Assembly: GCF_000469545.1 (NCBI RefSeq)
Contig: NZ_KI273061.1
Coordinates: 110,761-174,760 of the forward strand
Direction of reading: 5' to 3'
DNA from: Mitsuokella sp. oral taxon 131 str. W9106
GTDB taxonomy: Bacteria > Bacillota > Negativicutes > Selenomonadales > Selenomonadaceae
Length of the DNA: 64,000 nt
Below the pieces are notes generated by a model. That model was not told the DNA's origin, ran no database searches, and saw only the letters and a list, made by a program, of their open reading frames with translations. Both the position numbers and the translations under genes were made by a program. Position 1 is the first letter of the stretch, and each line of letters begins with the position of its first letter. Positions 312 through 64,000 of the stretch are shown here, piece by piece.

Positions 312-1115
312 TTATGCCTGCGGATCATGTGAACCTGATGATCCGTGGTTTTTCAGTGGCCCCTTGACCGATTTTGTTGCCATATAGGTTTTGATGTTCA
401 TGTCATGCAGCCTGCCAAAGCCATTGGTATCTTCATATAAATCAACCAACGTAAATCCTGCTTTCAGTTGTCCTCCGATCTGCTCGGTCATCGTATGAGA
501 GAACTGCATCCCGGAGCGTTCCGCCAGCATATACTCCCTAGCTTTTTCATCTTTCAATGGATTGAACGGCATAGTCCAAACAATTTCTTTTTCTTCCTTG
601 TCAACCATATAGTTGATTTCATTGTTCAATCCGGAAAGCAACATGCCGCCTTGTTTCAAAACGCGGTACGCTTCACGGAAGACAAACGCCACATCTTCCA
701 CATAGCAATTCGAAACAGGGTGGAATACAACATCAAAACGTTCCTCTGGAAAAGGGAATTTTTTCGTCATGTCCCCCTCGATCGCATCAATATGATAGCC
801 CTCCCGCTCAGCTACCAACCATTCGGATTCGATCTGCTTCGAGGAGTAATCCAGCACGGTACACTCCGCGCCCAACGCATGAAAAATCGGCATTTGCTGA
901 CCGCCGCCCGATGCCAAGCCCAAGATCTTTTTTCCTTTCAGCGTCCCAAACCATTCATGCGGAACAAAAACCGTAGGGGTCAGCAAAACATTCCAATTTC
1001 CCTTCTTTGCTTCGAGATACTCCTCATGAGACGTAGGGTTTCCCCACATCCACCCTTCTTCAACCCACCGATCTATTGTTTCTTTATTGATATCTTGATA
1101 GGTCTTTGCAAGCAA
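312..1115 (-). CDS. class I SAM-dependent methyltransferase
   Basis: A 267-residue protein. Motif I (ILGLASGGGQ, about residues 64-73), an acidic residue ending the next strand (VLDYS, about 87-91) and a GDM ... FDVVF block (about 113-132) show a Rossmann-fold SAM methyltransferase of the Methyltransf_11/25 type. The substrate cannot be read from sequence. I chose the TTG at 1113-1115 because AGGGGAGGGA lies just upstream. A longer ATG-led frame extends to 1316 but crosses the promoter and the hairpin of the upstream gene. The gene stands alone, downstream of the old-yellow-enzyme gene on the same strand, with its own extended -10. Confidence 0.8.
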   Translation of the reverse strand: MLAKTYQDINKETIDRWVEEGWMWGNPTSHEEYLEAKKGNWNVLLTPTVFVPHEWFGTLKGKKILGLASGGGQQMPIFHALGAECTVLDYSSKQIESEWLVAEREGYHIDAIEGDMTKKFPFPEERFDVVFHPVSNCYVEDVAFVFREAYRVLKQGGMLLSGLNNEINYMVDKEEKEIVWTMPFNPLKDEKAREYMLAERSGMQFSHTMTEQIGGQLKAGFTLVDLYEDTNGFGRLHDMNIKTYMATKSVKGPLKNHGSSGSHDPQA

Positions 1116-1146
1116 CGGCTTTCCCTCCCCTGTTTCAAATATAAAA

Positions 1147-1155
1147 ATTATACCA
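1147..1155 (-). promoter_or_regulatory. extended -10 for the methyltransferase gene
   Basis: On the minus strand the sequence reads TGGTATAAT, an extended -10 (TG-n-TATAAT), about 32 bases upstream of the TTG start. No good -35 box is visible, as is usual for extended -10 promoters. Confidence 0.45.
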
Positions 1156-1193
1156 CAAGCGAGGAGAAGGTGCCGAATGATTCTTTGCAAAGG

Positions 1194-1238
1194 AAAAGAG
1201 AGTCCAAACGCTAGGCAGGGCGAATGGAAATCTCTTGT
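1194..1238 (-). terminator. hairpin terminator of the OYE gene (family copy 1)
   Basis: The arms AGAGAGTCCA and TGGAAATCTCT flank an inner CGC...GCG pair. On the minus strand the stem is followed by a short T-rich tract, so it can end transcription of the reductase gene whose stop codon is at 1336. The hairpin, including its loop, is nearly identical to the one at 3695-3740 and related to one at 10034-10078. Confidence 0.55.
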
Positions 1239-1335
1239 GCATGGGGGCAAGGGAGCTCCTTCAAGAAGCAGGCTCTCCCAGCCTCGAGAATGGAACGTAC
1301 CATCGCACGCCCGCACGCCAACCGAGCCTTGAAGA

Positions 1336-2385
1336 TCATCTTCGCGCAGGATTCTTTTTCCGCATCATGCGTGCGGGACATTTCCTGCCGTCGGTGAACC
1401 ATCGACACGTTTTACAGCCAAAACAGGGGCGATAGTTCATATTCTCCATCGATCGCACGACAAATGATGGATCGGCGAGAAACGCCCTGCCATAGGCAAC
1501 AAAATCACAGGAATGATGTTGCACGAGAACGTTGCCTCGTGCAAGCGTGTCAATCCCCCATACGGTGATGACGGGGATGCGTATGTGCGGCTTGATTGAA
1601 GAACCTGCGTATACAATGCTGCTATATCCATAATCGGCAGGCAGATGGAAGCTCCGTGCCTGCGGTATCCCGTGTGAGACGTGCAGCATTTCGATGCCGA
1701 TAGCCTCAAGCGCCTGTGCTGCTGCAATATCCTCCTCCAGTGAATTTGTCCAGCCCATTCGATAGGACAGGATGAATCGGTCATCGGCGAATTTCTGAAT
1801 GCCGCCCACGATCTCCCGGACAAGCGTCAGCCGCCCATACCGATCTCCTCCATATCGGTCGCTGCGTCGGTTCGCCTCGGCAGAGGCCATCATATTCAGG
1901 AAAAAACCATGTGCGCCGTGTAGTTCGACACCATCTGCTCCCGCACAGAAACAAATATATGCGGCATTTATAAAGTCCTCTCGTATGCGCTCCAAATCTG
2001 CTGTTGTCAGCGTGTTGACATCTTTGGAATCAAATGCCGAAACATCATATCCGCCTTTGCCCAGCTGTACAAAGAATCTGCTTCCGTACCTATGGCAACG
2101 ATCTGCAAGCTGCTTCAGATAAGGAATATGTCGCTTGGAATACGCTCCTGCTCCACCGGATGTTCCGGCAGAACGCGCCATGGGATCGTCTGATGCGGAT
2201 ACGCTCAGAGACTGGCTGATGAGAAGCCCAATCCCTTGATCGCAATAGGCAAGGTATTCGCGGATAAGCATATCGCCCATAATCCCGTCATGGCAAGGAA
2301 ACCCGAACCGTACCATCGGCGCCATAACGATTCTGTTTTTGAACCTCACCTTTTTGATCTGATCGGATGAAAAAATATGGCTCAT
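1336..2385 (-). CDS. NADH:flavin oxidoreductase, old yellow enzyme family
   Basis: A 349-residue single-domain TIM-barrel flavoenzyme. It has the OYE substrate-site motif HGAHGFFLN (about 155-163) followed by the ANRRSDRYGG segment (about 171-180), and phosphate-binding residues near the C-terminus (AYGRAFLADP). The tail carries four cysteines (CFGCKTC ... C), like the cluster region of 2,4-dienoyl-CoA-reductase-like members, but the FAD/NADPH domains of the large members are absent. The likely activity is FMN-dependent ene reduction; the substrate is unknown. The start ATG has AGGAGGG about 9 bases upstream, immediately beside a MITE. Confidence 0.88.
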   Translation of the reverse strand: MSHIFSSDQIKKVRFKNRIVMAPMVRFGFPCHDGIMGDMLIREYLAYCDQGIGLLISQSLSVSASDDPMARSAGTSGGAGAYSKRHIPYLKQLADRCHRYGSRFFVQLGKGGYDVSAFDSKDVNTLTTADLERIREDFINAAYICFCAGADGVELHGAHGFFLNMMASAEANRRSDRYGGDRYGRLTLVREIVGGIQKFADDRFILSYRMGWTNSLEEDIAAAQALEAIGIEMLHVSHGIPQARSFHLPADYGYSSIVYAGSSIKPHIRIPVITVWGIDTLARGNVLVQHHSCDFVAYGRAFLADPSFVVRSMENMNYRPCFGCKTCRWFTDGRKCPARMMRKKNPARR

Positions 2386-2402
2386 ATATGACTCCCTCCT
2401 AA

Positions 2403-2563
2403 GGAACCACGGATAAATTCAGCACCATCATCTTGGCGTATCTTTTTTGCCCGCTTTTCGTCGGCAAATCCTCCACAGAGCACCACTCTGCGTCCGGTTT
2501 GCCTCCTCAATCGGACGAAAAAATCTACGCCCATCTGACGGACTTCATTTTATCCGTGGTTCC
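2403..2563. mobile_element. 161-bp MITE with 15-bp terminal inverted repeats and CTAA target duplication
   Basis: The ends are perfect 15-base inverted repeats, GGAACCACGGATAAA at 2403-2417 and its complement at 2549-2563. The element is flanked on both sides by CTAA (2399-2402 and 2564-2567), the expected target duplication. The two halves also share internal symmetry (GGCGTA, a run of T, GGCAAA), so the whole element can fold on itself. It has no ORF. It sits directly upstream of the ribosome binding site of the OYE gene and separates it from any older promoter. The mobilising transposase is not recognised in this window. Confidence 0.8.
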
Positions 2564-2616
2564 CTAAATCTTGCTATTTTGGCCAATATCATTATAATCA
2601 TGGTATACCATTCAAT

Positions 2617-2645
2617 ATAGTACGCACAAATTTGTAAGATACTAT
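2617..2645. promoter_or_regulatory. palindromic operator candidate upstream of the HxlR gene
   Basis: ATAGTA (2617-2622) and TACTAT (2640-2645) flank a perfect inner palindrome ACAAATTTGT (2626-2635), ending 18 bases before the HxlR start. HxlR-type regulators bind dyad-symmetric sites and often control their own promoter, so this is a reasonable autoregulatory site. Function is inferred from position and symmetry only. Confidence 0.5.
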
Positions 2646-2663
2646 CCAAAAGGAGAGAATTAC

Positions 2664-3008
2664 ATGATTCAAATGATCTGCCGCAGCAAAAAGGCTCCGT
2701 TTTTATCCACCTTGGCCATCATCGGGGGCAAGTGGAAAATGCGCATTCTCTATGAGCTTTCCTGCGATTCCGTGTTACGATATGGCGCATTGAAACGAAA
2801 TCTTTCTCCCATCACGCACAAAATGCTGAGCACGCAGCTGAAGGAGCTTGAAAAAGATGGCATGATTATACGCAAGGAATATCCACAGGTCCCCCCAAAG
2901 GTCGAATACTCCCTGTCCGATAAAGGAAAAACATTCATCCCCATCATCCATGCCATGTGCGATTGGGGAAAAGCGTATCCCATCAACAGCTCATTCGGCA
3001 CTCACTAA
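2664..3008 (+). CDS. HxlR-family transcriptional regulator
   Basis: A 114-residue winged-helix protein with the family pattern in order: GGKWKMRILYEL (about 21-32), ALKRNLSPITHKMLSTQLKE (about 44-63) and VPPKVEYSLSDKG (about 77-89). HxlR regulators sense redox or electrophile stress in many bacteria; the Cys residues at 6, 35 and 106 could be relevant but this is inference. The start ATG follows AAGGAGAG. It is divergent from the OYE gene, a frequent pairing in which the regulator controls the reductase, with the MITE now between them. Confidence 0.88.
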   Translation: MIQMICRSKKAPFLSTLAIIGGKWKMRILYELSCDSVLRYGALKRNLSPITHKMLSTQLKELEKDGMIIRKEYPQVPPKVEYSLSDKGKTFIPIIHAMCDWGKAYPINSSFGTH

Positions 3009-3092
3009 AAAGTGCCTACTTGTGCCGGTCTCCGACACGCAGTAATATAAATCAAGCGTTTTACGACATATCATACGGCAAAGGAGAATGAA

Positions 3093-3662
3093 ATGAACAA
3101 GCAGGCACAGGATAAGAACGGATATATCCTTCACGGGTTTGACGCATCATCCACGCGGCACTGGTTTCCCTGGCTGAACAAATTTCTGACAGACAAAGGC
3201 GCTATCACTGAATCCATCGATATGCCGACACCGGCACAGCCGGACTGCAGGACATGGCTGTCCTTTCTCTCCGAGCGTATCACGCGCATCTCATCAAACA
3301 CCTATTTTGTTGCCCATAGTCTGGGATGCATTACAACGCTTCGATATTTGCAAACACTTGGTGCACCAATCGGCGGCGTTGTGCTCGTCTCCGGATTCGA
3401 TCAGCCGATTCCAGGCTTTTCGTTCCTCGATGCATTCACCGCCACATCTCTAGACTATGACCTGCTTTCAAGAATCATTCCAAACAGAGCCGTTGTTTCC
3501 GCCATGGACGATCCGATCGTCCCTCATGAGTTCAGCCGCTCGTTTGCCGAACGATTCGACGCAGTCTTTTATGAGACCAAGACGGGCGGGCACTATCTGG
3601 ACGCCGACGGCGTGACAACACTTCCCATAGTTGCCGATGTACTGTCTCGCATGATGAAATAA
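3093..3662 (+). CDS. RBBP9/YdeN-like serine hydrolase
   Basis: A 189-residue small alpha/beta hydrolase. The N-terminal HGFDASS turn, the nucleophile elbow AHSLG (about 75-79), an Asp in AMDDPIVP (about 137) and a late His in GGHYLD (about 166) give a complete catalytic triad in the order expected for the RBBP9/YdeN family (DUF1234/Ser_hydrolase). No signal peptide is present, so it should be cytoplasmic. The substrate is unknown. The start ATG follows AAAGGAG. It lies 84 bases downstream of the HxlR gene and may be co-transcribed with it. Confidence 0.82.
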   Translation: MNKQAQDKNGYILHGFDASSTRHWFPWLNKFLTDKGAITESIDMPTPAQPDCRTWLSFLSERITRISSNTYFVAHSLGCITTLRYLQTLGAPIGGVVLVSGFDQPIPGFSFLDAFTATSLDYDLLSRIIPNRAVVSAMDDPIVPHEFSRSFAERFDAVFYETKTGGHYLDADGVTTLPIVADVLSRMMK

Positions 3663-58156: not shown

Positions 58157-59450
58157 GGCTCTTTGTCAAATGTTGTGGGAAACTTTTTTAGATTTTTTTG
58201 TTCGCCGCGCTTGACGCTCAGGGTTATTGAGTACAAAAAGTATTCTTCTTCTGAAGTTTTTAATATTGCGAAAACCATAACTGATTCGTTTCAAGGTCTT
58301 AATGGTATTATTGCACCCTTCTGTGAACCCGTTGTTGTATCCAGTTTGGATGCCCGTCCAAATTTCTTCCTGCCACTGATACGTTGTGCGAAGCACACGC
58401 TTGAATTCCTTTAACCCAAACTTTGCTACATGCTCCGCGAAATCTTGCAAGCGTCGCTTGTAAGATGCATGATCCTTGCTGGAGAACAACGCAAAGTATT
58501 CTTCTTTGAGTTGGTATGCATGAGACAAATCATCCGAGACGTTAAGCATACCCTTCAGTTTCGAAAGAGAGGCTTCTTTCAAGGTGTTCTTGCGAGCGAG
58601 CAGGATTTTTTTAGCATTCTTGAAATCCCTGCGCTGCTCCGAATCCAATTTTTCCTGTACGTCAACCCGAATTTCGTTCAAGGCATCATTGGCCAATCGG
58701 ACGGCATGGAATTTGTCCGCTGCGATAATCGCATTCGGGAAATGTTCTTCCACTATCTTGCGGAAGAAGGACGATAGATCCATGCTGACAAGACAAACCG
58801 ATTCTCGCATCTCCTGCGAGTAGGATAGGACTGCATCGTAGAGGGCTTCTTTCGAGCGATCCTTTAGGATTGCGCAGCATTGCTTTTTCTCAAGGTCATT
58901 CATGACGACTTGGTACTTTGCGCCAACATTGCCGCGAAATTCATCCATGGACAGAATACGTGGCAGCGTAGATCGATCGGCCTTTTTCTCTGCTGTTTCC
59001 ATCGCTCTAGCAAAATGGCGCATGACTGTCGGCACAGACACGCCATGCCGATGCGCAATATGCTCCTCCGTGACAAGAGCACCGTGTTCCTGCACGATTG
59101 CATCAATCACGCTATTTGGCATCCGTTGATAGGGTTTGATGAACGTCCTTTCTTCCATAAAGGTCTTTCCGCATTCTTGGCACAAGTAGCGTCTGCTTTT
59201 GTAAATGCAGGTCATGTCGCTTACTGCTAGACCTCTCAGACGCTGCATACGATACCCGTGCACAATCGTATGCGACGCACCACAATGCGGGCAATATTGG
59301 ATCTTACGTGGCAGTGTGAATTGCAGGACTCCTTTTTCAATAAATTTTCGGCAAGAGGCTGGAAGTTCAAAAAGAAACATGATAAAATCAATAGCCATAG
59401 GGGACTCCTTTCTCTGTTCTTTGAGCAATTACAGTATACAGGAATTTCCC
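58157..59450 (-). mobile_element. ISL3-family insertion sequence, right end not identified
   Basis: The left end begins GGCTCTTTGTCAAATG at about 58157, matching the usual ISL3 terminal repeat (GGCTCTTTGTCAA...). The transposase stop codon lies inside it. I could not find the matching inverted end (TTGACAAAGAGCC) to the right of the transposase start before ssb, so the promoter-side end is missing or strongly diverged. The right boundary given is approximate. Confidence 0.6.
58166..59398 (-). CDS. ISL3-family transposase
   Basis: A 410-residue transposase. The N-terminal zinc finger is CPHCGASHTIVHG ... CQECGKTF (about 36-80), followed by a helix-turn-helix (EEHIAHRHGVSVPTVMRHFA). DDE catalytic blocks are LSMDEFRGNVG, VSMDLSSFF and AADKFHAVRLAN; the C-terminal EGCNNTIKTLKRISYGFRN contains the Glu. 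All key residues are present, so it looks intact. ATG 59398 follows AAAGGAG. Its base composition is lower in GC than the neighbouring chromosome. Confidence 0.95.
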   Translation of the reverse strand: MAIDFIMFLFELPASCRKFIEKGVLQFTLPRKIQYCPHCGASHTIVHGYRMQRLRGLAVSDMTCIYKSRRYLCQECGKTFMEERTFIKPYQRMPNSVIDAIVQEHGALVTEEHIAHRHGVSVPTVMRHFARAMETAEKKADRSTLPRILSMDEFRGNVGAKYQVVMNDLEKKQCCAILKDRSKEALYDAVLSYSQEMRESVCLVSMDLSSFFRKIVEEHFPNAIIAADKFHAVRLANDALNEIRVDVQEKLDSEQRRDFKNAKKILLARKNTLKEASLSKLKGMLNVSDDLSHAYQLKEEYFALFSSKDHASYKRRLQDFAEHVAKFGLKEFKRVLRTTYQWQEEIWTGIQTGYNNGFTEGCNNTIKTLKRISYGFRNIKNFRRRILFVLNNPERQARRTKKSKKVSHNI

Positions 59451-60085: not shown

Positions 60086-62074
60086 TTACATTTTTTTCGC
60101 TTTGCGCAGATCTGGCTTGCCTCGATTGTCCGGGGCGGTCGTCTTGCAGTTCGGATAGCCCGTGCAGCCCCAAAAATATCCGGTCTTGCCTTTTCGCCTG
60201 CGCATAGGCGATTGGCAGTTCGGGCATCGCACGATATTTGCTGGCGGCGCAATCTTTGTTTCCTTCGCGCCACGCAAAAGAGCATCCAAGAATTTCTCCT
60301 GTTGCGCTGAAAAGTCAGAAAGGCTCATCGCACCATTCCCGATTTTGTCGAGTGCGTCTTCCCAGCGCGCTGTAATATCTGGATAGAGCAAGGTTTCGGG
60401 GAGAATCCTGCAAAGCGATATGCCGAGCTCATCCGGAACGAAGTTCTTTCCCTGCCGCTTGATGAAGCCACGTCGCTCAATCGTTTCGATGATGCCCGCT
60501 CGCGTCGCCTCCGTCCCGATGCCGGAGCACTCCTTCAGCGAAGAAGCAAGTTCTTTGTCGAGCACATATTTATGGATTTCCTTCATCGCCTTCAAGAGCG
60601 TGGCCGGCGTGAATCGTGCCGGCGGTTTTGTCACGCCTTCGAGAATCTGGCCATCCGCAATCGCGACCGAATCGCCTTGATTGACCGATGGAAGTTTCTG
60701 TTCCTCCTCTTTTTCCTCTCCCTCGCTTTCTTCCTGCTCTGTATAAAGCGCTTTCCACCCCTGCGCAAGAATGACCTTTCCGCTTGCGGAAAATATCTCG
60801 CCTCCGGCAGAAACGGAAATATGTGTCGTCAGAAATTCCTGCGCAGGGAAAAATTGTGCGACATAGGCTTTGGCAATCAGCGTATAGAGATTTTTCTCCC
60901 TATCACTTAATTCCGAGAAGTTCGGCTTGACGCGCGTCGGAATGATTGCATGATGCGCGGAAATCTTTTTGTCGTTCCATGCCCGGCTGCGGATTGCTCC
61001 ATCGGCACGTTTGGCAAAATCGGAGAACGATGCCTCCAACGAGGAAAGCATTTCCAAGATTGCATCCTTGTCGCCGAGCTGGTTCTCCGGCAGATAGTCG
61101 CAATCCGAACGCGGATAGCTGGCAAGTTTCTTCTCGTAGAGAGCTTGCTGTGTGTCGAGCACATCCTGCGGAGAGTAGCCAAACTTTTTCCCCGCGTCAA
61201 TCTGCAAGGCAGACAAGGAATACGGCAGTCGTTGTTGGGCGATTCCTTTTTTCTGCTCCACGGTTTCAATCCTTGCCACTCCGTCTTGCGCTTTGCGCAA
61301 AATCTTCTCCGCATAGTCTTTTGAAAGAATCCGTCCATCCGAATCGACGCCCTCCCCCTCGTGCGGTTTCCACTTTGCCGAAAAGTTTCCATTCGGATGC
61401 CTCAGAAAAATCTGCGGCGTGAAAAACTGCACGGGACGAAAATTTCGGATAGCAAGTTCTCGCCGAATGACAAGCCCCATCGTCGGCGTTTGGACGCGTC
61501 CGACGCTGACACTATTATCGTAGCCTGCCATGCGCGCGAGAATCGTATAGATGCGGGAAAGGTTCATGCCGATGAGCCAGTCCGCGCGCGAGCGTGCGAG
61601 AGCCGAGTTTCGCATCCCGATGAATTTGTCGTTTGGCTGCAAGTGATGCAAGGCTTCCTTGACGGATTTTTCATCCAGCGCATTCAAAAGAATCCGTTGA
61701 ACCGGCTTTTTCTTCAGGACGCCGAGATCGTTCAGCACCTCATCGACAAGAAGCTGCCCCTCCCGATCCGGGTCACCTGCATGGACGATCTCATCCGCCT
61801 CCTTCACCAATTCCCGAATCCGTCCGTATTGCTTTTTGGCATCTTGCTTGACTTTCATCTTCCATACGGACGGCACAATAGGCAAATCTTCCATCCGCCA
61901 CTTTCCATATTTCGCATCATAATCCTCCGGCTCATATTGTTTCAGGATATGACCGAAGCACCATGTCACGACGCCGTTTTTCGTTCGGATGCAGCCATCC
62001 ATTTCCACGCCGCCGCCAAGCCCCTGCGCAATCGCACGTCCGAGGCTCGGCTTTTCCGCAAGGAACAGCCTCAT
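60086..62074 (-). CDS. topB: DNA topoisomerase III
   Basis: A 662-residue type IA topoisomerase. The Toprim domain has FLAEKPSLGRAIAQGLGG and HAGDPDREGQLLVDEVL; the catalytic Tyr is in KKLASYPRSDCDYLPE. SVGRVQTPTMGLVIRRE and GIGTEATRAGIIETIERRGF are family blocks. A C-terminal zinc ribbon (CPNCQSPM ... CTGYPNC) follows. Copies like this are common on conjugative elements. It overlaps the coiled-coil gene upstream by 4 bases. Confidence 0.95.
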   Translation of the reverse strand: MRLFLAEKPSLGRAIAQGLGGGVEMDGCIRTKNGVVTWCFGHILKQYEPEDYDAKYGKWRMEDLPIVPSVWKMKVKQDAKKQYGRIRELVKEADEIVHAGDPDREGQLLVDEVLNDLGVLKKKPVQRILLNALDEKSVKEALHHLQPNDKFIGMRNSALARSRADWLIGMNLSRIYTILARMAGYDNSVSVGRVQTPTMGLVIRRELAIRNFRPVQFFTPQIFLRHPNGNFSAKWKPHEGEGVDSDGRILSKDYAEKILRKAQDGVARIETVEQKKGIAQQRLPYSLSALQIDAGKKFGYSPQDVLDTQQALYEKKLASYPRSDCDYLPENQLGDKDAILEMLSSLEASFSDFAKRADGAIRSRAWNDKKISAHHAIIPTRVKPNFSELSDREKNLYTLIAKAYVAQFFPAQEFLTTHISVSAGGEIFSASGKVILAQGWKALYTEQEESEGEEKEEEQKLPSVNQGDSVAIADGQILEGVTKPPARFTPATLLKAMKEIHKYVLDKELASSLKECSGIGTEATRAGIIETIERRGFIKRQGKNFVPDELGISLCRILPETLLYPDITARWEDALDKIGNGAMSLSDFSAQQEKFLDALLRGAKETKIAPPANIVRCPNCQSPMRRRKGKTGYFWGCTGYPNCKTTAPDNRGKPDLRKAKKM

Positions 62075-62355
62075 GGAATCATGCCCTCCTCCCGTGGTTC
62101 TTCCATCTGCTTCTCCTCTTTTTCCTGCTTCGCCATTTCATAGAGCCGATTCAAATCCTTCGCATTGTCATAGCCGAGCGCAAAGATTTGCTCCCCGATG
62201 ACGGCATTCCGTTTTGCATGGATCGCCGCTATCGTTTCCTTGAGCTTCTTGATTTTTCCTTTGATGCGCTCTGCTTCTTTTTCCGCATGTTCGAGCTGCG
62301 CCGAAAATTTTTCAAGCTGCTGATCGAATTTTGCGAGGACTGTTTCTGCATCCAC
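62071..62355 (-). CDS. coiled-coil protein upstream of topB (DUF4315-like)
   Basis: A 94-residue charged helical protein (FDQQLEKFSAQLEHAEKEAE, then heptad-like KIKKLKETIAAIHAKR), typical of small coiled-coil proteins that precede topB or mob genes on Firmicute elements. I chose GTG 62355 after GGAGGG; a TTG at about 62380 with GGGAGGG is an alternative. The longer frame to 62481 contains no ribosome site. Confidence 0.6.
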   Translation of the reverse strand: MDAETVLAKFDQQLEKFSAQLEHAEKEAERIKGKIKKLKETIAAIHAKRNAVIGEQIFALGYDNAKDLNRLYEMAKQEKEEKQMEEPREEGMIP

Positions 62356-62745: not shown

Positions 62746-64000
62746 ATGGCCTGCTATCATTTTCGCCTGAAGACGGACAAGAAGCCGAGCGGGATACGCG
62801 TTTCCGCTGCGGAGCATCTTTCGTATGTCAACCGCGCGGGAAAATATCGGAACATTGACCAACGGGATATGATGAGTCAGGGCGTAAAGAGTTACGCGAA
62901 TTATTTTACGGGACGCTTCCCCATCCTCTCCCTGCCAAAGCAGCCCGTCCTTCTCTACAACAGCCCATTCGGGAAGATCAAGCTCGACGCAAAAGGCGTC
63001 CATGTCAGCGACCGCGCATCCGTGGAGACGGAAGCCATCGCGCTCCTCGTCGCGCAGAAAATCTTCGGCGACGAGCTGGACGTGCAGGGCGATGCACGAT
63101 TTGAGCGCGACGTGCTCGGCATCAGCCGTGACCTCGAGCTCGGCGTGCACTTCGCAGACATTCAGATGGAGCTGCGAAATGAAAAAGGGAAAAAGGAGCG
63201 TGAAGAGATTGAAGGACAGCGAGCCCTCGCTGAAGGATCAGCTATTTGTGCTGGACGGCGGGATGGAAGCGGAGACGAATCCCGATTCGGAAACCGAAAC
63301 GGAAACCAAGGCATTGGCCGAAGTGCCAGAGGGCGATTCCTCGGTGCAGGTGGAGCAGCCGACGCCATCGGATGTGGTTTCGAGCCGGACGCTGCTCGCC
63401 CTGCCGCAGAATCAGTTGAAGACCTTGCTCGACTCGGACTGCGCCTGCGCGACCTGCCCGTCGGGAATGTGGCTGACAAAAGGCGACGCCGTTCTCTGTT
63501 TCTGCGGCCTGATGAAGACGGTAAGCTCCACGATGAGCGAGGACGGCGTGATGCCTGTCTTGCTGTGCGATGGGCTCTTTCTGACGTGAGAAGGCGCGAG
63601 GCAACGAAAGCCGCGGATTCCATTCTTGCCAATTTGCAAAAGCAAGTGGAAAATGATTTCGCCTTTGCGCATCTTCAGTACATCAACCGCGAGGCGGCTT
63701 TTTCGATGCGCGGCGGCGTCAAGGCAACGGGGCATCACCTTCCGCAGTGGGCGAAGGATTCCCCGCTGCGCTTTTTCCATGCAGCGGATCGGTTCGAGCG
63801 GGCGAACGGCGAGCGGTACAAGGAAATCATTTTCTCGCTGCCGAACGAGCTGAACCTCGAGCAGCAGCGCGAAATCCTGGACACGTTCCTCGCGCACCAC
63901 ATGGAAAACCACTACTACGCATGGGCAATCCATGAAAAAATCGGCTCGATGTCCGAAGGCGAACGGCATCCGCATGTTCACCTCATGTTCTCGACGCGCG
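62746..64000 (+). CDS. mobA: MobA/MobL-family relaxase, incomplete at the right edge
   Basis: An open frame of 418 visible codons from ATG 62746 (after GGGAGGTG) with no stop before the edge. Residues 1-150 (MACYHFRLKTDKK, EHLSYVNRAGKYRNID) match the N-terminal part of MobA-like proteins in Negativicutes. Residues 290-418 match the relaxase domain (LQYINREAAFSMRGG, SLPNELNLEQQREILDTF, and the metal-binding HPHVH at H408/H410/H412). Residues 146-280 are Arg/Gly-rich, with third positions no longer G/C-rich. A second frame is well coded there (63179-63589). The protein may be one chain or two coupled parts, with a possible restart at GTG 63586. Confidence 0.85.
   Translation, partial: MACYHFRLKTDKKPSGIRVSAAEHLSYVNRAGKYRNIDQRDMMSQGVKSYANYFTGRFPILSLPKQPVLLYNSPFGKIKLDAKGVHVSDRASVETEAIALLVAQKIFGDELDVQGDARFERDVLGISRDLELGVHFADIQMELRNEKGKKEREEIEGQRALAEGSAICAGRRDGSGDESRFGNRNGNQGIGRSARGRFLGAGGAADAIGCGFEPDAARPAAESVEDLARLGLRLRDLPVGNVADKRRRRSLFLRPDEDGKLHDERGRRDACLAVRWALSDVRRREATKAADSILANLQKQVENDFAFAHLQYINREAAFSMRGGVKATGHHLPQWAKDSPLRFFHAADRFERANGERYKEIIFSLPNELNLEQQREILDTFLAHHMENHYYAWAIHEKIGSMSEGERHPHVHLMFSTR
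63179..63589 (+). CDS. nested cysteine-rich small protein inside the relaxase frame
   Basis: A 136-residue frame, +1 relative to the relaxase, from ATG 63179 (GGAG seven bases upstream) to TGA 63587-63589. The first half is acidic and flexible. The second half is compact, with LLALPQNQLKTLLDSD, CACATCPSGMWLTKGDAVLC, FCGLMKTV and VLLCDGLF: several Cys in a zinc-finger-like order. By hand, third positions are G/C in 29 of 40 codons here versus 17 of 40 for the relaxase frame (lines 63241 and 63361), so this frame shows the coding signal. Its stop overlaps a GTG (63586) in the relaxase frame. I do not know its function. Confidence 0.6.
   Translation: MKKGKRSVKRLKDSEPSLKDQLFVLDGGMEAETNPDSETETETKALAEVPEGDSSVQVEQPTPSDVVSSRTLLALPQNQLKTLLDSDCACATCPSGMWLTKGDAVLCFCGLMKTVSSTMSEDGVMPVLLCDGLFLT

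Follow-up and report, generated by a model that had tools for sequence, protein, structure and literature searches.

In IncP plasmids, traH lies out of frame inside the relaxase gene traI, an arrangement that has long been known, and the TraH protein of RP4 stabilises the complex between the relaxase and oriT (PMC7314908). In IncQ plasmids, mobB is nested inside mobA (PMC2200642), and in pMS260 it occupies the +1 frame. The name TraH is also carried by a pilus assembly protein of F-like plasmids and by a VirB8-like protein of pIP501; judged by their descriptions, these have only the name in common with the family considered here. To our knowledge, which rests on incomplete coverage of the literature, TraH has so far been regarded as a feature peculiar to IncP plasmids.

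The window, i.e., the whole 64,000-nucleotide stretch from Mitsuokella sp. oral taxon 131 str. W9106 analysed here, contains a gene of the TraH type in the relaxase gene of a putative conjugative element. As with IncP TraH (RP4, R751, and pB8), its product has the Cys core, is acidic, and is encoded in the +1 frame of a relaxase gene; the TraH sequences compared were those of IncP-1beta and other plasmid homologues rather than that of RP4 itself. As in IncP TraI, the nested gene directly follows the LPD7 domain, with AAGGAG at the junction. However, the IncP host is a MOBP relaxase, whereas the window host is a MOBQ, IncQ-type MobA in the Bacillota, and the nested gene lies before the nuclease core, while IncP traH lies after it. 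A TraJ homologue was not recognised beside the window relaxase, where the divergent ORF upstream gave only a weak FlaC_arch match. What is new is thus a TraH-type gene in a MOBQ relaxase of the Bacillota, placed ahead of the nuclease core. An earlier note on this DNA had found the overlap unusual and had missed the TraH identity; with the IncP precedent, it is less unusual than was thought.

The relaxase gene and the limits of the nested gene

The relaxase gene, of the MOBQ, MobA/MobL type, begins at ATG 62746 on the forward strand and, as the earlier note had reported, stays open up to the window edge at 64000; it continues to G000:C12:176631, giving an ORF of 1041 aa with the rest of the contig. 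The MobA/MobL nuclease domain is recognised by Pfam (PF03389, 3.4e-20), the core is 41% identical to MobA of the IncQ plasmid pMS260 over 197 aa (E=2e-30), and a related Selenomonas plasmid carrying the same relaxase gene has been typed as MOBQ. By these sequence comparisons, the core is an IncQ-type MobA (MOBQ). Residues 85-146 (62998..63183, +) form an LPD7 domain; PF18821 matches it at E=3e-5 to 2e-4, which is under the curated cut-off, and a profile of the N-terminal part of the window family matches LPD7 of IncP TraI (E=2e-11). A basic linker (pI 9.15; 63208..63588, +) is the dual-coded portion of frame 0 and its least conserved part. The nuclease core starts at 63658 (63658..64000, +), and its invariant residues in alignment A4 are H309, Y312, and R315, along with the His pair H410 and H412. 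In an AF2 model of the N-terminal 418 aa, the LPD7 domain and the core are confident and the linker is mostly at pLDDT 30-50, which suggests that the dual-coded segment is probably disordered. Such disorder would ease dual coding.

The motif HxxYxNRE is present twice in the relaxase (62746-62850 and 63658-63700), flanking the insert that comprises LPD7 and the TraH-like gene. Y27 and Y312 of the two copies are both nearly invariant, and the catalytic Tyr could be either. The duplication predates the insert, since insert-free relatives (L061 and L110-L112) already carry both copies.

The nested +1 frame is open up to TGA 63587-63589, so the end of the gene given by the earlier note stands. Its proposed start, an ATG preceded by GGAG that gives 136 aa (63179..63589, +), falls outside the start-codon column of the relatives. 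That column is an NTG located 10 nt after AAGGAG and is either ATG or, in the window, TTG 63209. The nested gene is best read from these alignments as TTG 63209 to TGA 63589 (63209..63589, +), encoding 126 aa plus the stop; ATG 63179 is probably not the start, although it may also be used. The Shine-Dalgarno sequence AAGGAG (63193..63198, +), which doubles as relaxase codons for Lys-Glu, is conserved: it is found in exact form in 27/34 relatives with the nested gene versus 0/15 without it (Fisher P=1e-7, with kinship ignored). The predicted protein is acidic (pI 4.05; 13.4 kDa) and carries the pattern S...C-x2-C...W...C-x-C...CDG, invariant in alignments A1 and A3, with the Cys core (C-x2-C...W...C-x-C...CDG) encoded by 63446..63574 (+).

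Coding and persistence of the two frames

The earlier note had observed in sampled lines that the coding signal moves to the +1 frame, and this holds across the entire overlap. GC3 there is 100/126 in the nested frame, 57/127 in the relaxase frame, and 73/126 in the third frame, and the relaxase frame outside the overlap scores 105/144 upstream and 98/136 downstream. Permutation of synonymous codons in the window alone did not indicate significant openness of either frame (P=0.14 for the relaxase frame and P=0.76 for the nested frame). When log10 P was summed over 34 distinct relatives, it came to -72 for the relaxase frame, where nested synonymous codons were permuted and usually created frame-0 stops, and -43 for the nested frame in the reverse test; the 34 sequences are related, and these sums serve as an index rather than as a probability. 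The relaxase frame is stop-free across the linker in all 57 nested Selenomonadaceae loci for which complete scoring was possible, every nested gene detected is in phase +1 relative to the relaxase, and the nested frame is conserved over the 34 distinct sequences, down to a GC content of 0.36.

The phase of substitutions is also informative. When 12 pairs of relatives with the nested gene were compared, frame-0 positions 1, 2, and 3 accounted for.415/.283/.302 of the differences within the overlap, as against.245/.137/.617 in the LPD7 domain and core (chi2 P=2e-54). The wobble base of the nested frame coincides with frame-0 position 1, and the shift thus indicates purifying selection on the nested frame. 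First-position differences are 1.8 times second-position differences in the ordinary coding part, and these two are about equal in the nested gene; the share of its wobble base is below normal, in keeping with a simultaneous constraint on frame 0. Where the nested gene is dead, the Shine-Dalgarno sequence has been lost, the relaxase linker has been retained without loss of length, and a preference for position 3 partly reappears (.318/.251/.431; nonuniform, P=0.0009), so frame 0 still encodes protein there. Overall, these sequence data show that both frames are coding and conserved.

Matches to the N-terminal part of the relaxase were found in 27/201 related genomes, and an independent search with the nested protein found it in 22/201, mostly in the same genomes and at the same place. 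Scanning of the genome contigs for the relaxase core gave 66 loci (some genomes are repeated) from taxa that include Selenomonas, Centipeda, Anaerovibrio, Quinella, and Sporomusaceae; one host family was studied in depth. Relaxases of this MobA type have four forms. The commonest contains LPD7 and a linker of 120 to 165 codons with the nested gene, another contains LPD7 and a short linker (about 35 to 44 aa) without it, and a third lacks both the LPD7 insert and the nested gene (Sporomusaceae L110-L112 and Selenomonas ruminantium L061 and L066). In the rare fourth form, represented by a few loci, the linker is long, frame 0 is open, and the +1 frame is full of stops. Nested-gene matches flagged as having stops inside were not accepted as broken genes, because the profile match overruns the true stop or start.

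In a tree built from LPD7 and the core, with the linker left out, all sequences outside one 29-row clade carry the nested gene, and the dead and deleted forms are confined to that clade, with at least four state changes. This distribution indicates an old presence of the nested gene in the family, followed by several losses. Loss sometimes left the linker behind and sometimes deleted it too, the relaxase being kept, and the LPD7 part and core of linker-deleted relaxases are still fused in frame. The nested gene is thus dispensable in some cases. A tree of the 70-column nested core was poorly resolved, and the number of nesting origins could not be read from it.

These observations bear on three alternatives to a separately initiated gene nested in a dual-coding relaxase gene. 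Long spurious ORFs arise in GC-rich sequence, and chance could account for two open frames if the window is considered by itself, so the nested ORF might be an untranslated shadow of the relaxase linker. The earlier note expected a shadow to show a linker better conserved than the nested frame and a nested frame interrupted in relatives; overall, it is the nested frame that is better conserved, and interruptions of it are confined to some members of a single clade. Given also the conserved Shine-Dalgarno sequence and start and the persistence of the frame in relatives of low GC content, a shadow is extremely improbable, and we regard it as already refuted by the phase of substitutions and by the homology, described below, to an annotated gene in an equivalent position. 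A programmed +1 frameshift joining LPD7 to the nested protein would agree with a frame change that is always +1. However, a Shine-Dalgarno sequence and an NTG start are conserved at the junction, and the +1-frame stops upstream vary freely among relatives, which makes a frameshift scarcely credible.

The earlier note had also asked whether the relaxase is really two proteins, an LPD7 part and a nuclease, with a third between them and a linker frame that is open by accident. The predicted disorder of the linker and its low conservation in frame 0 are in keeping with this idea. However, the linker is free of stops in all 57 loci, it remains open and biased toward position 3 after the nested gene has decayed, and its deletion leaves the two parts fused; furthermore, the first strand and the Tyr motif belong to the N-terminal part. 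No element with a stop cleanly separating the parts was found, and the interrupted relaxases (L081, L097, and L117) look like broken copies. Two separate proteins are therefore highly unlikely, and the other option raised in that note, a dual-coding relaxase linker, is the one supported by an open frame 0 over a conserved +1 gene.

Homology to TraH and the proposed role

The nested protein could not be assigned to a family by sequence searches of Pfam, NCBIfam, and PDB; IncP TraH is likewise unmatched in NCBIfam. A search of plasmids with the nested protein gave matches within the traI genes of IncP-type plasmids, and the Negativicutes profile matched an ORF inside R751 traI (E=1.6e-25 in a small search set). 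In the IncP plasmid pB8 (L180), that ORF is annotated as traH (CAI10779.1; 2501-2893 inside traI, 955-3195), and AP018709 names the same overlapping gene “relaxosome stabilization protein.” Conversely, a profile built from six proteobacterial TraH sequences matched 104/9475 ORFs of the Negativicutes loci. Every one of these is a nested-gene copy, in a few cases truncated or divergent, and the window copy is among them (E=1.2e-9). Identity between the window protein and IncP TraH is only about 27%. TraH of R751 (pI 4.3; 13.9 kDa) is acidic, as is the window protein. Based on these profile matches in both directions, the nested protein is homologous to IncP TraH. A literature search found nothing on LPD7 in connection with a relaxase or on IncP TraH under the term “relaxosome stabilization.”

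MobB of IncQ plasmids (RSF1010 and pMS260) resembles the window gene: it too is a small mobilisation gene nested in phase +1, and the relaxase genes that house the two are closely related. However, it lacks the Cys core, has a hydrophobic C-terminal segment, and occupies another gene position. With pMS260 as the IncQ reference, MobB scored 0.3 bits against the TraH-family profile, and MobB was rejected as the identity of the nested protein. Thus, two unrelated small genes are each housed in the +1 frame of MobA-type relaxase genes.

The AF2 model of the nested protein contains a modest four-strand C-terminal domain (pLDDT about 70 to 84) and a disordered acidic N terminus, and a Foldseek search of PDB with this model gave no match better than E=0.8. 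The five cysteines conserved in the protein hint at a small fold that binds metal. The genes near the relaxase (TrbL/VirB6, ArdC, topoisomerase, and SSB) fit a conjugative element.

Other genes in this neighbourhood were also recorded. The gene directly downstream of the relaxase (L002 4133-5734, -) runs toward it and encodes a 533-aa protein that has a MuF_C domain and matches PBECR nucleases weakly; it may be a toxin-like cargo. A transposase-like ORF of 420 aa (58166-59428, -), resembling the ISL3 family, lies beside ssb and topB of the element. A small coiled-coil-like ORF of 93 aa (62074-62352, -) is divergent from the relaxase, in the position of IncQ mobC, and a hypothetical gene of 93 aa occupies the equivalent position in a Selenomonas plasmid.

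In the mechanism that we propose, frame 0 would yield a MOBQ relaxase consisting of an N-terminal strand, the LPD7 domain, the disordered linker, and the nuclease core, and initiation at the internal Shine-Dalgarno sequence and TTG 63209 would yield the acidic, Cys-rich TraH homologue from the +1 frame. Most likely, one mRNA would serve for both proteins, and their amounts would thereby be tied. By homology, the acidic protein would bind the relaxase, hold it at oriT before transfer, and stabilise the relaxosome. The nested protein is thus most likely, by analogy with IncP TraH, the relaxosome stabiliser of this conjugative element. We consider it very probable that this explanation as a whole, a TTG-started TraH-type gene overlapping a MOBQ relaxase gene and encoding such a stabiliser, is correct.

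The nested ORF could also be a true TraH homologue with another function, e.g., as a regulator or as an adaptor that links the relaxase to the coupling protein in a metal-dependent manner. The failure to recognise TraJ beside it, its repeated loss with the relaxase kept, the strict conservation of its cysteines, and the adjacency of tandem stand-alone versions to MOBF-type ORFs (see below) are compatible with this possibility. However, gene position, acidity, and association with a relaxase match TraH across MOBP, MOBQ, and MOBF, and we regard a different function as unlikely.

The family across relaxase classes

Members of the TraH family, always in the +1 frame, were found in MOBP and other LPD7 relaxases, namely, those of IncP, Neisseria pConj (L182), Campylobacter pTet (L181), IncI2 (L175), Pseudomonas (L185), and Burkholderia (L186). 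They also occur in MobA/MobL relaxases of 8.8-kb plasmids from Dickeya, Escherichia coli, and Klebsiella (L178) and of L154 and L157, as well as in MOBF relaxases of Selenomonas (L177, L155, and L156) and Moraxella (L183). The loci of these last two groups share with the window a TraH-family gene in the +1 frame of a relaxase but differ from it in relaxase class, in having that gene after the relaxase domain, and in that no adjacent LPD7 was found. Stand-alone proteins with two tandem TraH-like Cys domains were also observed (L150, L151, L163-L166, L152, L153, and L160). Their genes are not nested and lie directly after, or slightly overlap, a large ORF, which resembles a TraA/MOBF helicase in L152 and L160.

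Between the Dickeya mobQ gene (MobA/MobL) and R751 traI (MOBP), the only similarity detected is a stretch of 118 bp, 75% identical, in the nested core. With relaxases of such different classes, this match suggests that the dual-coding segment itself has been exchanged. TraH with its frame-0 complement, LPD7, and the internal Shine-Dalgarno sequence may form a recombining dual-coding cassette that has moved as a single piece of DNA between unrelated relaxase genes (e.g., of MOBP and MOBQ) and phyla with both frames staying open; we put this forward tentatively, at about even odds or slightly less. If it is true, TraH would be a general relaxosome partner that has largely been missed because annotation drops overlapping genes.

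The annotated traH genes that were found came from a few older IncP records and one plasmid with a broken-up traI. For E. coli IncI2, RefSeq shows the LPD7 protein only and no TraH gene in the 25 listed of 298 records that contain the sequence. In a Pseudomonas aeruginosa plasmid (L185 1404-5178), the nested gene is kept as a “hypothetical protein” and the relaxase start is set far downstream (3214); here, the overlap seems to have misled the annotation pipeline.

TraH thus appears to be widespread: its family occurs in several phyla and within relaxase genes of three or more classes. Some of the plasmids concerned are of clinical importance (IncI2, Campylobacter pTet, and Neisseria pConj), and the gene is missing from those of their annotations that were inspected. 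Mutation or deletion in this segment of the relaxase gene may alter two proteins. Within the Selenomonadaceae set, the nested gene is alive, decayed, or deleted depending on the lineage, with an intact relaxase; such lineages offer a ready comparison for studying selection in overlapping genes and the function of TraH.
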